25,267 bases of DNA, taken from positions 1 to 25,267 of IMG/VR virus record IMGVR_UViG_3300021365_001891. One strand, 5' to 3'. Origin of the DNA: a virus. This document shows positions 11,643 through 22,256 of the stretch, one piece after another. A program made the translations under genes and the position numbers. The stretch's first letter is position 1. Each line of letters opens with the position of its first letter. Under the pieces are notes generated by a model. That model had not been told where the DNA came from. It made no database searches and saw only the letters and a list, made by a program, of their open reading frames with translations.

Positions 11643-13322
11643 ATGTCAGACACTCTTAAAGAGTATATAGTAACACTTCATAACTTTGAAAATTTAGATG
11701 CTTTCTATAATGACATGGAAACTCCTGGTGGAGACCTTTATATTCCCAACAGATCAGTAGATGTCAAGCATAGAAGAAACATAAGCAGAAACACTCACTA
11801 TATGCTTAATGACGCAGAAGCAGAAACTTTACGAAATGATTCAAGAGTTCTAGCAGTAGAACAACCACCTTCAGCATTAGGTATACAAAAAATTGCACAT
11901 TGGGAACAAACTTCCAATTTTGAAAAAGATAATAGCATATTGGGAAATTTTAATAACACTGATAAAAATTGGGGATTATTAAGAGTAACAGAAGGATCTA
12001 ATTTAGCCAATTGGGGAACTAACGGTTCATTTACACAAACCAATCAAACAGTAAAAACAACAAGCAGTGGCAAAAATGTTGACGTGGTGATGGTTGATTC
12101 ACATATTAAAACTGATCACCCTGAATTTGCAGTTAATTCAGACGGATCAGGAGGATCAAGAGTGCAACAATTTAATTGGTTCAGTTTAAATTCTCAACTG
12201 GGAATTAATGCAGGATCAAGCAACTATGATTATTCTGATATAAGTAGCAACCATGGCACACACACAACAGGCACAGTGGCAGGCAATACTCAAGGTTGGG
12301 CAAGAGATGCCAACATTTATTATATGGAATTTAATTACACAGGAACATTCACTCCAGGTAATTGGGAACTTTACCTTTATGATTACATTAGAGAGTGGCA
12401 CAAAACAAAAGCAGTTAATCCTGTAACAGGTAGAAGAAATCCTACTGTGTGTAATAATAGTTGGGGGTACAATTACGGTAATATTTCTCTTTCAGGTATT
12501 AACGGTCATACCTACAGAGGAACATTTACTGATATTTCAGGTCAACCAGATGCAACCAAAAAAACATCACTGGAAACAAATGGTGTGCCGGTTCCTGCAA
12601 GTACATACCTATTTCGTATGCCGGCAGTATCGGCGGGAGTTGATGCTGATGTGGTAGACGCCATTGCAGACGGAGTAATAATGGTAGGCTCTGCTGGTAA
12701 CAGTTATTGGCCTTGTGTAAAAAATGCCAATGCAAATTATAACAATAGTATAAGATTTGGTGTGAGTGATTATGTTCACTCACAAGGATCAAGTCCTGCA
12801 AGAGTAATGATATGTGTCGGCAATGCTGGCACAAAAACTCAACAATATAAAGATACAAGCAGTAATTATGGAGACAGAGTCGACATCTGGGCGCCTGGAG
12901 AAAACATTATTTCTGCAGTTTATAACGGTCCCGGAGATGAAACACCTACTCCTTACACTAATACATTGACCGATACAAGGGACAGTAATTATTATATCGC
13001 ATCTATATCAGGAACAAGTATGAGTGGTCCACAAGTCGCAGGTGTATTGGCTAGTAGAGCAGAACAAGATCCTAACATGACTCATGTCGAAGCATTAGAT
13101 TATTTGATTGATAATTCAACATCAGGAGACATAAGCAGTACTGGTAGTGATTATGGGGACAGTGAATGGTTAGGTGATGGATCAATTAATGATCAAAACA
13201 AATATTTGAGATACATTTATCATAGACCATTAAACGGAACAGCATTTCCACATCAAGATCATAAAAAAAGACCAGTATCAGGGTCGGTATATCCAAGAAA
13301 TAAGGTTAGACATAAAGGATAA
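11643..13322 (+). CDS. Subtilisin-like serine protease (S8) with I9-like propeptide
   Basis: A 559-residue subtilase. The catalytic triad is visible: D152 (VVMVDSHI), H204 (NHGTHTTGTVAG) and S459 (SGTSMSGPQVAG), with the oxyanion asparagine N353 in VGSAGNSY. The N-terminal ~75 residues (EYIVTLHNFENLDAFYNDME, then LNDAEAETLRNDSRVLAVEQ) resemble an inhibitor-I9 propeptide, which acts as folding chaperone and is cleaved off. There is no signal peptide, so the enzyme should act in the host cytoplasm or on the virion. It lies inside the fibre block, two bases after the previous fibre stop. Likely jobs are maturation of fibre or baseplate proteins, or a virion-borne protease acting on the host surface; both are inference. 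The residues after about 525 are basic and histidine-rich. Confidence 0.93.
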   Translation: MSDTLKEYIVTLHNFENLDAFYNDMETPGGDLYIPNRSVDVKHRRNISRNTHYMLNDAEAETLRNDSRVLAVEQPPSALGIQKIAHWEQTSNFEKDNSILGNFNNTDKNWGLLRVTEGSNLANWGTNGSFTQTNQTVKTTSSGKNVDVVMVDSHIKTDHPEFAVNSDGSGGSRVQQFNWFSLNSQLGINAGSSNYDYSDISSNHGTHTTGTVAGNTQGWARDANIYYMEFNYTGTFTPGNWELYLYDYIREWHKTKAVNPVTGRRNPTVCNNSWGYNYGNISLSGINGHTYRGTFTDISGQPDATKKTSLETNGVPVPASTYLFRMPAVSAGVDADVVDAIADGVIMVGSAGNSYWPCVKNANANYNNSIRFGVSDYVHSQGSSPARVMICVGNAGTKTQQYKDTSSNYGDRVDIWAPGENIISAVYNGPGDETPTPYTNTLTDTRDSNYYIASISGTSMSGPQVAGVLASRAEQDPNMTHVEALDYLIDNSTSGDISSTGSDYGDSEWLGDGSINDQNKYLRYIYHRPLNGTAFPHQDHKKRPVSGSVYPRNKVRHKG

Positions 13323-17965: not shown

Positions 17966-17994
17966 TTGACTTTTTGAGTTAAATCACATATAAT
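17966..17994 (+). promoter_or_regulatory. Consensus sigma70-type promoter, predicted leaderless
   Basis: TTGACT (17966-17971), a 17-base spacer, then TATAAT (17989-17994). This nearly perfect housekeeping promoter is the expected form for host-polymerase early transcription. The ATG at 18001 is the seventh base after the -10, where transcription should start, so the mRNA should carry no leader. No Shine-Dalgarno sequence is present. Confidence 0.82.
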
Positions 17995-18000
17995 ACACTT

Positions 18001-18522
18001 ATGAAAATTGACACTTTAGGTTTGCCGAAGTACGGTGTAGAAGATTGTATGGATCTTATATACAAAGGCAAGTTGGATACACTGTTCAAAGTGTATGTGG
18101 AAAAAAATTCAGAAACTGAACAATTTAATCTGTCTATCAAAGAAACAGGTGACGGACAAATGCTGAAGTTTTATGAGCCATTAGACATAAGTTTGAAAGA
18201 TTTTGACAATCTTTTACAATCAGAATGGTTTATGCCAAACAGTTACAAGCAGTTTGATATTGAAAAATTTTTGATAGCACAGTGTCCAGACAAACCAGAA
18301 GCAAAAACAAGAGTTATTGAAGAATTAAACAAGTTCAAAGAATTAGGACATCTAAATTTATTGAAGTTTTTACATTTTTTGGTAACATTTATGAAAGAAA
18401 ACAAGATTGTGTGGGGTGTAGGCAGAGGCAGTTCGGTAGCAAGTTACGTATTGTATCTATTGGGCATACACAAAATTGATTCGATCCAGTATCGACTAGA
18501 CTGGAAGGAATTCATCAGATAA
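18001..18522 (+). CDS. Stand-alone fragment related to DNA polymerase III alpha (DnaE)
   Basis: A 173-residue protein. The C-terminal half matches the start of the palm region of bacterial Pol III alpha: RVIEELNKFKELGHLNLLKF, then FMKENKIVWGVGRGSSVASY (about 131-150) and YLLGIHKIDSIQYRL, ending in FIR. The DnaE counterpart is the ENGI-x-VGPGRGS(G/A)AGSLVAY...L-F-E-R-F-L segment. The protein stops where DnaE continues to its catalytic PDxDxD motif, so no polymerase active site is present. The N-terminal ~100 residues are not recognisable and show no PHP-domain motif. It is therefore unlikely to polymerise DNA. It could bind a primer terminus, template or host replisome part, or act as an inhibitor or decoy; this is inference. 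It has its own leaderless consensus promoter, suggesting early expression. Confidence 0.75.
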   Translation: MKIDTLGLPKYGVEDCMDLIYKGKLDTLFKVYVEKNSETEQFNLSIKETGDGQMLKFYEPLDISLKDFDNLLQSEWFMPNSYKQFDIEKFLIAQCPDKPEAKTRVIEELNKFKELGHLNLLKFLHFLVTFMKENKIVWGVGRGSSVASYVLYLLGIHKIDSIQYRLDWKEFIR

Positions 18523-18525
18523 ATA
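18518..18525 (+). promoter_or_regulatory. Late-type promoter element GATAAATA
   Basis: GATAAATA overlaps the TAA of the DnaE-like gene. It precedes the gene at 18549 by 23 bases, with AGGAG at 18536-18540 as ribosome site. It marks a switch from the early DnaE-like gene to a late gene. Confidence 0.55.
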
Positions 18526-18548: not shown

Positions 18549-18896
18549 ATGGCAGTAAAACAAACAGGCAAAAAAGTTTATAAGACCATGCAGGGTAAAA
18601 CCGTGGACATGGATCTTTTGAGAAAAAGAAATGAATTAACTCCAGCAGTTGGCAATGCCAAAGTAAATGCTAGAGGTGACGAATTAGGAGCAGGTGGCAA
18701 AATCATCAAAAAAAGAGAAGATGTTTTAGCAGATTATTACAGAGATAATCCTGAAACTGTTTCTCATAAAGAAAAAACTCCAGAGCCTGTAGCACAACCA
18801 GTTGTAGAAGAACCTGTTGCAGAAGCACCAGCACAAGAAAACAACGATTGGGTTGAAGATGCAGACGGCAACTTTGTTAAAAAAGATCAAGAATAA
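18549..18896 (+). CDS. Conserved probable virion protein, acidic tail
   Basis: A 115-residue protein. The basic N-terminal half (KKVYKTMQGKTVDMDLLRKR, then NELTPAVGNAKVNARGDELG) contrasts with a Pro/Glu-rich acidic C-terminal half (EEPVAEAPAQENNDWVEDAD). I recall related N-terminal sequences in marine T4-like phages, usually without assigned function. The late-type element and a strong ribosome site suggest high late expression, compatible with a structural or capsid-associated protein, but this is inference. The stop overlaps the start of the GroES-like gene (TAATG), so the two are probably coupled. Confidence 0.68.
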   Translation: MAVKQTGKKVYKTMQGKTVDMDLLRKRNELTPAVGNAKVNARGDELGAGGKIIKKREDVLADYYRDNPETVSHKEKTPEPVAQPVVEEPVAEAPAQENNDWVEDADGNFVKKDQE

Positions 18897-19276
18897 TGGT
18901 GTCTACACAAATCTATCAAGGCACACTTACTCCAATACATAACAGAGTAATAGTAACTGATATGGATTTCGGCGAGCAAAAAACTGCTGGCGGAATTATT
19001 ATTGCATCAGATGATGGTCAATCCAGAGGTATTCATCCTCGTTGGGGCAAAGTTTTTGCCAAAGGTCATGAGAACGATGACGACTATCAAATAGGAGATT
19101 GGATTTTAGTTGAACACGGAAGATGGAGCAGAGGCGTTACCATGGAAGATGAAAATGGTATCAAAACTGTTGTGCGTGTTGTCGAAGCAGAATCCGTTTT
19201 AGGAACTTCCAAAGAAAAACCATCAGATGTATTGTCTAGAAAAGTAGACAATGATACGCCATATTTGGCTGAATAA
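18896..19276 (+). CDS. GroES/gp31-like co-chaperonin
   Basis: A 126-residue GroES-fold protein. LTPIHNRVIV (11-20) matches the first strand of co-chaperonins; KTAGGIII (29-36) matches the mobile loop with its hydrophobic tripeptide (I34-I36) that docks on GroEL. GKVFAKG, then YQIGDWILVEHGRW, matches the GEVLAVG and VGDIVIF strands, and VVRVVEAESVL the final strand. It is longer than typical host GroES (about 95-97). In T4, gp31 replaces GroES to fold the major capsid protein in a taller cage; the same role with the host GroEL is likely here. It is coupled to the preceding probable virion protein, possibly a client; this is inference. Confidence 0.86.
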   Translation: MVSTQIYQGTLTPIHNRVIVTDMDFGEQKTAGGIIIASDDGQSRGIHPRWGKVFAKGHENDDDYQIGDWILVEHGRWSRGVTMEDENGIKTVVRVVEAESVLGTSKEKPSDVLSRKVDNDTPYLAE

Positions 19277-19314: not shown

Positions 19315-19482
19315 ATGAAACTTCCAGTAATACAATCTAAAGGATTAAACACAACCGGCGTAACTGGCATTGTGTTAATGACTTTACACTTAACAGGCAC
19401 AATCACAGGATGGGGTTGGCCTTTGTTATACATCATATTAATATTAAGTGGCATGGGCCAAGAATACATGAGGAGAGATTGA
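19315..19482 (+). CDS. Small membrane protein, 55 residues
   Basis: A 55-residue protein. Residues about 14-46 (GIVLMTLHLTGTITGWGWPL, then LYIILILSG) are hydrophobic and could form two short membrane segments broken at GWGWP; the C-terminus is charged (QEYMRRD). It is the first gene after a consensus promoter, with its ATG at the predicted transcription start. The function is not recognised. It is too short for confident homology; a role in host membrane modification is only a guess. Confidence 0.65.
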   Translation: MKLPVIQSKGLNTTGVTGIVLMTLHLTGTITGWGWPLLYIILILSGMGQEYMRRD

Positions 19483-19639: not shown

Positions 19640-20554
19640 ATGAAAGATTTATGGGTAGAAAAATATCGTCCTAAAACAGTAGACGGTTATGTGTTCAGAG
19701 ATGAACATCAAAAGAATCAAGTAAAACAATGGATCAACGAAAAGACTATTCCGCATTTATTATTCAGTGGTAATGCAGGTATTGGTAAGACAACACTTGC
19801 AAAACTTTTGTTCAATGAACTTGAAGTAAATGACTTGGATATATTAGAAATAAATGCAAGTAGAACAAACAGTGTAGATGATATAAGAAATACAATCATT
19901 AACTTTGTACAAATGATTCCATTTGGTGACTTTAAAATTGTACTGCTAGATGAAGCAGATTATCTATCACCTAATGCACAGGCGGCACTGCGTGGTGTGA
20001 TGGAAGAATATCACACAACAAGTAGATTTATTTTGACTTGTAACTATCCCAACAGAATTATTCCTGCACTGCACAGCAGATGCCAAGGCTTCCATATAGA
20101 ACGTATTGATCAAACAGAATTTACCACAAGAGTTGCTAAAATTTTAATGGATGAAGGCGTAACTCCGGACTTAGATATATTAGACACATATGTAAAAGCA
20201 ACATATCCAGATTTAAGAAAATGTATTAACACTGTGCAAATGAATTCACAAGAAGGCACACTGATTGCTCCTGCCAATGCAGACAAAGGCGAAGCAGATT
20301 ATAAATTGGAAATGACTGAATTGTTTAAAGCAGGCAAGATCACTGAAGCAAGAAAACTGGTTTGCAGTCAAGCACGTCCAGATGAAATTGAAGACATTTA
20401 CAAATGGCTGTATGATAACATCACATTGTTTGGTGATGAAGCACGTCAAGAAAAAGCAATATTGGTTATCAAACAAGGACTGGTAGATCACACATTGGTT
20501 GCTGATCCAGAAATAAATCTTGCGGCTACAATGATTAAACTACAAAATATCTAA
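19640..20554 (+). CDS. 44: Sliding-clamp loader large subunit (T4 gp44-like)
   Basis: A 304-residue AAA+ ATPase of the RFC/gp44 type. It opens with DLWVEKYRPKTVDGYV (RFC box II), has Walker A at 44-51 (GNAGIGKT), Walker B at 101-107 (VLLDEAD) and the SRC motif at 146-148 (HSRCQGF), which supplies the arginine finger. With a gp62-like subunit, not in this window, it loads the gp45 clamp onto primer-template ends for phage DNA replication and, in T4, also for late transcription. The length fits gp44 (about 319). It lies in the early operon begun by the promoter at 19280. Confidence 0.95.
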   Translation: MKDLWVEKYRPKTVDGYVFRDEHQKNQVKQWINEKTIPHLLFSGNAGIGKTTLAKLLFNELEVNDLDILEINASRTNSVDDIRNTIINFVQMIPFGDFKIVLLDEADYLSPNAQAALRGVMEEYHTTSRFILTCNYPNRIIPALHSRCQGFHIERIDQTEFTTRVAKILMDEGVTPDLDILDTYVKATYPDLRKCINTVQMNSQEGTLIAPANADKGEADYKLEMTELFKAGKITEARKLVCSQARPDEIEDIYKWLYDNITLFGDEARQEKAILVIKQGLVDHTLVADPEINLAATMIKLQNI

Positions 20555-20727: not shown

Positions 20728-20973
20728 ATGAAAATTAGATATTACAAAAATATTGATGGCTGGAGATGGTTAGGATTTATATTGGCAATGGTGAGTGCCT
20801 TTTTGTTGAGCAGTGGTCAATCAGAAATACAATGGATAGGTTGGGCTGTTGCCTGTTTCAGTTGCAGTATATGGATAAGAATGGGAATTAAAGACAAAGA
20901 CACACCAAGAGCATTAATGGAATTGATGTATTTGCTGTTGGCAATCAGAGGTGTGTGGAACTGGTTGGCATAA
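20728..20973 (+). CDS. Three-helix membrane protein, 81 residues
   Basis: An 81-residue protein with three likely membrane helices: about 12-28 ([17 protein letters not shown]), 35-51 ([17 protein letters not shown]) and 62-80 ([19 protein letters not shown]), with a basic loop [12 protein letters not shown] between the second and third. The size and three-helix shape resemble a half-transporter unit, but no transporter signature is clear and I would not name one. It is tightly spaced in the operon: its TAA overlaps the ferredoxin ATG. Confidence 0.65.
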
Positions 20974-21296
20974 TGACTTATGTAGTTAATGATAAATGCA
21001 TCATGTGTAAACACACTACCTGTGTGTCCGTTTGCCCTGTAGATTGCTTCTATGAGGGCGACAATATGCTGGTTATTAAACCCGACGAGTGTATTGATTG
21101 TGGTGTGTGTGAACCAGAATGTCCTGAAGATGCCATTAAAGCAGACACAGATCCTGAGGGAGAAGGTTGGGTAGAGTTTAATAGACAATGGGCAGAAGCA
21201 TGGCAAGTATTAGACACACAAAAAGAACCAATGCCAGGCTACGAAAAGCATTCAGGCGAAGCAGACAAATTAAAGAAATATTTTAAAGACAAATGA
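20973..21296 (+). CDS. 7Fe-type ferredoxin (FdxA-like)
   Basis: A 107-residue ferredoxin. I take the ATG at 20973 (TAATG overlap) because family members begin with TYVV/AFVV. The earlier ATG, 18 bases upstream, only adds MELVGI. It has nine cysteines, C9, C12, C17, C21, C25, C40, C43, C46 and C50, in the same order as Azotobacter ferredoxin I, consistent with one [3Fe-4S] and one [4Fe-4S] cluster. The text [11 protein letters not shown], then IKPDECIDC, is typical. It is a cytoplasmic electron carrier. The next gene is flavin-dependent ThyX, whose start overlaps this stop (ATGA), which suggests it could feed electrons to nucleotide or other reductive steps; this is inference. Confidence 0.93.
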
Positions 21297-21922
21297 TCGT
21301 AGAACTAGTAGACAAAATGGGTACAGACTTATCTGTGGTGAATGCCGCAAGAGTAAGTTACAGTAAAAACAAAGAAACATTTGAAGCATCAGATGAAAAA
21401 TTAATCAAGTATCTTGCTGAACACAATCACTGGTCTCCTTTTGCTCATGCATCATTACAATTTAGAATCAAAGCACCAATATTTGTTGCAAGACAACTTG
21501 TGAAACATCAAGTTGGTTTAGTATGGAATGAAGTATCAAGACGATACGTTGACTTTCCGCCTGAATTATACAGCACAAAAACATGGAGAGGTAGACCACA
21601 AAATTCTAAACAAGGCAGTGCTGGCGAAATTGAATTAGATCCCACAATGAAACATATGATGGAAACAACAATGGAAAGTTGTCTAATTTTATACAATGCA
21701 TTGATACAAAAAGGTGTAGCACCAGAACAGGCACGTATGGTTTTACCACAAAATATGATGACCGAATGGTATTGGTCAGGCACACTATATGCCTTTGCTA
21801 GAGTTTGCAATCTACGTTGTGCTAAAGATACTCAAGAAGAAACACGTGATATAGCAGATAGAATACATAATATTTGTAAAGAGGAGTTTCCAACAAGTTG
21901 GAAGTATTTAAAAAATGAGTAG
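21293..21922 (+). CDS. thyX: Flavin-dependent thymidylate synthase
   Basis: A 209-residue ThyX, making dTMP from dUMP with methylene-tetrahydrofolate, FAD and NADPH. The signature region is [20 protein letters not shown] (68-87): the usual RHR is K71-H72-Q73 and the conserved serine is S82, with eight residues between instead of the usual seven. [16 protein letters not shown] (173-188) matches the dUMP-binding NLR...Q-E-R region. HWSPFAHAS (46-54) is the family N-terminal motif. The degenerate signature is probably typical of marine phages, but I cannot check this. The start overlaps the ferredoxin and the end overlaps the parvulin, forming a coupled trio. Confidence 0.94.
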
Positions 21923-22256
21923 ATGTAGTCACATATTAATTGCACACGAAGACGCAACAAGAAGTCAACGAAATGTATCAAGAGAAGAAGCACTATTTTT
22001 AATTGCTGATATTCAAAAAAAGATGTTGGACAACGAATTAACATTCGAGCAAGCCGCAAAAATGTATAGCGATTGTCCTAGTGGAAAAGCCAATGGCGGT
22101 GATCTAGGAAAAATTAAACGTGAACAAATGGATAAAGATTTTATGATTTACCTAGACGGATTACAGCCTGGTGACACCAGCGGTATTTGTTGTACAGCAT
22201 TTGGTTTCCACATTATTCGTAGAAATCAAGATGTAACTATAAATCAGTCTCCGTAA
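21915..22256 (+). CDS. Parvulin-type peptidyl-prolyl isomerase
   Basis: A 113-residue single-domain rotamase of the PpiC/parvulin family. The core motifs are SHILIAHED (H6), YSDCPSGKANGGDLG (C54, GGDLG 61-65), QMDKDF (M72, F76) and TAFGFHIIRR (H99), matching the active-site histidines, cysteine and hydrophobic pocket of small parvulins. There is no signal peptide, so it is cytoplasmic. It catalyses cis-trans isomerisation of X-Pro bonds in protein folding. The start overlaps thyX by eight bases and the 3' end overlaps convergent phoH by 13 bases. Together with the GroES-like gene it suggests the phage brings its own folding aids. Confidence 0.92.
   Translation: MSRCSHILIAHEDATRSQRNVSREEALFLIADIQKKMLDNELTFEQAAKMYSDCPSGKANGGDLGKIKREQMDKDFMIYLDGLQPGDTSGICCTAFGFHIIRRNQDVTINQSP

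Follow-up and report, generated by a model that had tools for sequence, protein, structure and literature searches.

The stretch of viral DNA analysed here (the window, 25,267 nt) carries at 18001–18522 a gene for a 173-residue protein, with a promoter in front of it and a conserved set of genes behind it. The features on which the analysis draws are:

17966–17971, plus strand: −35 element TTGACT, conserved in relatives
17989–17994, plus strand: −10 element TATAAT, with 6 nt between it and the ATG
18001–18522, plus strand: likely N-terminal half (N half) of a minimal DNA polymerase III alpha in two pieces, 173 aa, ATG start
18001–18288, plus strand: residues 1–96, N-terminal segment; NF005516 aligns from residue 54, AlphaFold2 pLDDT mostly 80–90
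18289–18519, plus strand: residues 97–173, beginning of the Pol III palm, corresponding to E. coli DnaE 317–393
18412–18447, plus strand: WGVGRGSSVASY loop, residues 138–149; G-x-G-R-G-S invariant in 28 diverse relatives
18549–18896, plus strand: small protein, PHROG 14844, follows the N half in 62 of 65 relatives
18896–19276, plus strand: GroES-like/head-morphogenesis protein, PHROG 931 (E 6.6e-13), in 65 of 65 relatives
19640–20554, plus strand: gp44-type clamp loader, PHROG 168 (E 4.5e-78), in 55 of 65 relatives

By profile search, residues 97–172 of the 173-residue protein match positions 19–94 of 260 in PF07733 (DNA_pol3_alpha) with an E value of 4e-12, scoring 46.8 bits against a family cut-off of 23.9. 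Residues 3–173 match positions 9–171 of 171 in PHROG 11127 (E 6.7e-39), a family of about 171 residues named 'DNA polymerase', to which the protein belongs over its full length. Using a 28-row profile, hhalign places residues 99–173 on E. coli DnaE 319–393 (E 2.3e-9), and the relatives by sequence in the PDB are Pol III alpha chains only, all of them weak (E 0.01). The original prediction of a DnaE fragment that stops just before the catalytic aspartates is thus borne out: the match takes in the VGPGRGS-type loop, here WGVGRGSSVASY, and runs on to the FER-FL position, and the reading frame terminates ahead of the PDIDIDF motif that holds the counterparts of E. coli Asp401 and Asp403. Towards the N-terminus, the NCBIfam DnaE model NF005516 covers residues 54–171, and the first 50 or so residues are without a recognised counterpart, the alignment to this model beginning at residue 54. 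An AlphaFold2 model built from 38 sequences (pLDDT 87.9, pTM 0.57) gave Foldseek matches in the PDB, the eight best of them to Pol III alpha; since the best E value is 5e-3 and the rmsd is high, the fold supports the sequence result without proving it. A full family C (DnaE/PolC) polymerase is defined by a single chain with a PHP domain, a palm with three aspartates, a thumb and fingers, and the window protein, with 173 residues and only the start of the palm, falls outside this definition. It is a short, separately encoded N unit comprising the Pol III palm up to, and excluding, the DxD.

Viral contigs yielded 71 loci related to the window gene. Nearly all complete copies are 163–185 residues long and share the ending ..LDWREFLR, so that the 3′ end is constant across about 70 relatives, and the same short form is found in the distant jumbo phages Atu_ph07, 121Q, MIJ3, Phosso and SCTP-2. 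At this locus the relatives carry the short form and not a full-length polymerase. Longer phage proteins annotated as DnaE that came from the same search (for example that of Bacillus FADO, 1120 aa) are not members of the short family. In pairwise comparisons, dN/dS lies between 0.055 and 0.13 among close relatives, with values of 0.055–0.12 for those of 79–96% protein identity, and is similar in both parts of the protein; the window gene is under strong purifying selection. It is an intact member of the short family PHROG 11127 and not a stray fragment. Behind the N half come, in this order, the small gene of PHROG 14844 type, the GroES-like gene and the gp44 clamp loader; this arrangement is conserved among the 65 relatives whose sequence continues for over 2.2 kb past the N half, and it is kept in the same five jumbo phages. 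A locus encoding only part of a polymerase could be the decaying remnant of a full-length dnaE. We give this explanation practically no credence, because dN/dS is low and length constant, and the original prediction had likewise argued against a decaying pseudogene; the conserved synteny and the short form shared with distant jumbo phages also speak against it.

The small protein encoded at 18549–18896 has a conserved core, QGKxVDMDxLxxxNExxxAVGNxxVNARGDxLGxGGxI, and a variable acidic tail. Just 5′ of its gene, ATAAATA at 18519–18525 resembles a T4 late promoter.

The N half has a promoter of its own, TTGACT-17-TATAAT-6-ATG, which agrees with the consensus at 11 of 12 positions; when the same 60 bases were shuffled, only 67 of 20,000 sequences reached its score. 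It is conserved, with 31 of 34 sequences scoring 10 or 11 of 12. With no more than 6 nt separating the −10 element from the ATG, the transcript is predicted to be leaderless, in keeping with the consensus leaderless promoter noted originally. The spacing between −10 element and ATG is 5–6 nt in the close relatives. Many other relatives have 12 nt to the aligned ATG, because an upstream in-frame ATG (an MLMK start) occupies the 6-nt position. We also observe that in many relatives (L027–L059) the −35 element, TTGACA, lies inside the final codons of the gene before the N half (..LDNLINI stop), and one stretch of DNA therefore serves as both coding end and promoter. Predicted leaderless promoters, with the −10 element 5–8 nt before an ATG, GTG or TTG, are common in the window lineage: as raw matches, G001, a 148-kb contig and the closest long relative of the window, has 15, compared with 6 in the 348 kb of 121Q and 2 in the 288 kb of MIJ3. 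A second such start lies in the window at 19315 (TTGACA-17-TATACT-6-ATG), ahead of a 55-residue open reading frame beginning MKLPVIQSKGLNTTG, and this element is conserved in G001 and in another close contig, G002.

The gene had been taken to stand alone. Here the evidence points the other way, since relatives encode the rest of the catalytic core, starting from the next block of residues, as a separate gene (the C half). Its product is about 190–212 residues long and typically starts MPDIDIDF. A scan for D-x-D-x-D-F turned up, in three genomes, proteins of 194–212 residues that carry a DIDIDF-type motif close to the N-terminus, a protein search found the C half in Atu_ph07, 121Q, MIJ3, Phosso, SCTP-2 and the large contigs G004 and G006, and two scans of viral contigs added many more. 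The aspartates are retained in all seven of the named genomes, and none of D2, D4, D6 and D64 (numbered as in the G101 protein) varies among 35 diverse sequences. With a seven-sequence C-half profile, hhalign gave a match to E. coli DnaE 510–644 (E 4.7e-5) in which KH..GV falls on KHAGGV and the aspartate of FKxD on Asp555. The MPDIDIDF start was matched to E. coli MPDFDVDF (399–406, with Asp401 and Asp403) by inspection, as the hhalign block does not reach this short motif. The C half thus carries equivalents of Asp401, Asp403 and Asp555. Its AlphaFold2 model (pLDDT 88.5, pTM 0.74) has Pol III alpha as all 14 of its best Foldseek matches in the PDB (best E 1.1e-3), and the partner proteins match PHROG 11778, also named 'DNA polymerase', over their full length. 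Across 11 genomes the PF07733 profile detected the N half alone and no C half, and the finger model PF17657 gave sub-threshold matches only. In complete phages the C-half locus lies near primase and the gp41 helicase, and in 121Q UvsX, UvsY, a DnaQ-like gene and UvsW are nearby as well. At 20 C-half loci the gene usually follows tightly behind, or overlaps, the upstream gene and has no promoter of the N-half type.

The N half ends at ..DWREFLR, the equivalent of E. coli LLFERFLN (386–393), and the C half starts at the equivalent of 399–406, so the chain is cut within a loop some five residues long. Among the genomes or contigs with both halves, 13 in number, every N half stops before the DxD and every C half contains it. 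Between the DxD and KHAGGV there are about 105 residues in E. coli DnaE and about 22 in the C half, and the alignment therefore suggests that most of the thumb is lost. The PHP, β-binding and τ-binding regions are absent from the pair.

The two halves also occur together. The C half was found in 7 of 7 large genomes that had been picked by their N half. In a phage collection, the N half (query 121Q, E 1e-9) is present in 87 records and the C half in 91; compared as counts per genus, the numbers are nearly identical (N/C: Escherichia 34/34, Pseudomonas 11/11, Klebsiella 10/11, Salmonella 8/8, Erwinia 8/8). Both halves are also on G101, G103, G105, G068 and G076, the first three with N halves that are 49%, 45% and 46% identical to that of the window, respectively. 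The complete Alishewanella phage Slicko01 has both halves in 141 kb, so the split system is not confined to jumbo phages. In G063 (280 kb) and G064 (199 kb), both chosen by their C half, no N half was found; these two may be fragments. Distances between N halves and between C halves are correlated (r 0.78, Mantel p 0.0002, n 13), as would also be expected from vertical descent alone.

In the window's own lineage the partner has not come into view. No open reading frame in the 25-kb window matches the catalytic half, and no C half was found in G001 (N half 92% identical), G002, G003 or the other closest contigs. Three successive C-half profiles gave chance-level matches only in G001–G003, and the best candidate (G001 100874–101389, E 0.047) was rejected for want of the aspartate motif. 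G001, G002 and G003 have no matches to gp41, primase, UvsX, UvsY or UvsW, and the other close contigs tested have no gp41. The region that would hold the C half, around the helicase, thus appears to be missing from these contigs, and the window itself is a 25-kb fragment. Several metagenomes contain N-half contigs of the window type together with C-half contigs. As candidates for the missing pieces of G001–G003, the metagenomic C-half contigs and G086 were rejected, with only a few proteins shared. This particular phage would be expected to have a C half as well.

The same absence might be read differently, with the N half acting on the host by itself, for instance as a decoy for dNTPs or the host replisome to the detriment of host Pol III. 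The strong leaderless promoter of early type and a protein without catalytic aspartates would both suit such a role, as does the failure to find a partner gene within the window. Against this, large genomes with an N half have a C half that begins at the next motif with its aspartates kept, half a palm is unlikely to make a stable decoy, and a search with the PADLOC defence library gave no match. We regard a host-directed N half as quite improbable. Interference with the host replisome and recruitment for a new role, both raised in the original prediction, likewise give way to the two-gene split polymerase already described in 2021.

The phage's main polymerase seems to be another enzyme. The window has a T4-like setting, with genes for a gp44 clamp loader, a GroES-like protein and PhoH, and G001 encodes a family B polymerase with intact motifs A (DINSLYP) and C (YGDTDS); the window itself ends short of that gene. 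This agrees with the T4-like phage with a family B polymerase that had been expected, and the split enzyme is therefore probably a second polymerase rather than a replacement.

Other genes in the window include a subtilase-family open reading frame (11643–13322, 559 aa, PF00082, E 2.9e-22) among long structural-type reading frames, and genes for Fe-S cluster biosynthesis (PF01521; 1282–1632), a ferredoxin-like protein (20955–21296), ThyX (21293–21922) and a PpiC-type isomerase (21915–22256). In G001 (148 kb; L101, L104) there are genes for a heme oxygenase, a protein of class I/II aminotransferase fold, a GroEL-type chaperonin and DnaK, at 94251–94787, 133463–134653 and 139546–143197; these may be phage genes or the product of a chimeric assembly.

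We consider it likely that the window gene supplies the nucleotide-binding N-terminal half of a minimal family C core made of two subunits, with the C-terminal half coming from an unlinked gene; judged from sequence, it is probably one subunit of the two-piece polymerase already proposed to exist beside the main polymerase of such phages. The C half would contribute the rest of the palm, all three catalytic aspartates and shortened fingers, and the two proteins would fold together into one palm with the GRGS loop of the N half beside the aspartates of the C half. In polymerases of the Pol β fold, the GRGS loop binds the phosphates of the incoming nucleotide. The assembled enzyme would have no PHP, β-binding or τ-binding regions and almost no thumb, and would work beside a family B replicase; the nearly absent thumb may mean a weak grip on DNA. 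The DnaQ-like exonuclease near the C half in 121Q might, speculatively, supply proofreading. The homology of the halves, their shared split point and joint presence in related genomes, the selection on the N half and the invariant active-site residues are computed results; physical assembly and polymerase activity are predictions, and the enzyme may have a role in one strand or in repair. In the literature we found no published activity for either half.

A heterodimer without polymerase activity would instead be a structural or regulatory part of the replisome, for example one connecting the clamp loader to the helicase-primase. In favour of this, the N half adjoins gp44 and the C half lies near primase and helicase, the thumb is down to a few residues, and there is a family B replicase whose motifs are intact. 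A purely structural role needs no active site, however, and active-site residues are among the invariant positions of both halves; we think an inactive heterodimer unlikely. Going further than the two-subunit core itself, we put forward only tentatively that this heterodimeric, nearly thumbless family C enzyme could be an active second polymerase for replication or repair in many T4-related phages, and that the separate leaderless promoter of the N half could control its assembly through subunit supply. An active enzyme of this kind would span the 141-kb isolate, uncultivated contigs and jumbo phages.

Like E. coli DnaE, the split enzyme has the homologous palm segment with the GRGS loop and, in the partner gene, the three catalytic aspartates; unlike DnaE, it has no PHP, β-binding or τ-binding regions, the thumb is nearly absent, the fingers are shortened and the chain is split. 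To our knowledge, every other family C polymerase is one large chain. A natural version divided between its nucleotide-binding loop and its aspartates would show the smallest working core of the fold, and it is found in phages that have a family B replicase already.

For the jumbo phages of group 2.2, Iyer et al. (2021, PMC7824862, in the part of the text available to us) predicted a minimal Pol III alpha in two pieces, an N-terminal unit that binds NTP and a C-terminal unit that binds Mg2+ and template, with their genes far apart and a family B polymerase alongside. The N unit of this system in Atu_ph07, 121Q, PA5oct/MIJ3 and SCTP-2 can be aligned with the window gene; the difference is that the N half of the window lineage is only 32–37% identical to those of the isolated jumbo phages. 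The available part of PMC7824862 has neither a residue-level map of the split nor the window lineage, and the names of PHROG 11127 and PHROG 11778 do not mark the two families as parts of a single enzyme. In phage vB_PcaM_CBB, the 172-residue CBB_328 is described as a truncated alpha subunit, with no partner named in the available part of that report (PMC5259590), and the short N protein had been noted earlier as an alpha subunit (PMC6102473). New here are the assignment of this gene, the map of the split and its extension to uncultivated relatives and a 141-kb isolate, together with the selection on the N half, the synteny and the conservation of the promoter. With the split point and the partner genes in 121Q, Atu_ph07, MIJ3 and Slicko01 defined, the 2021 prediction becomes directly testable with two small proteins.
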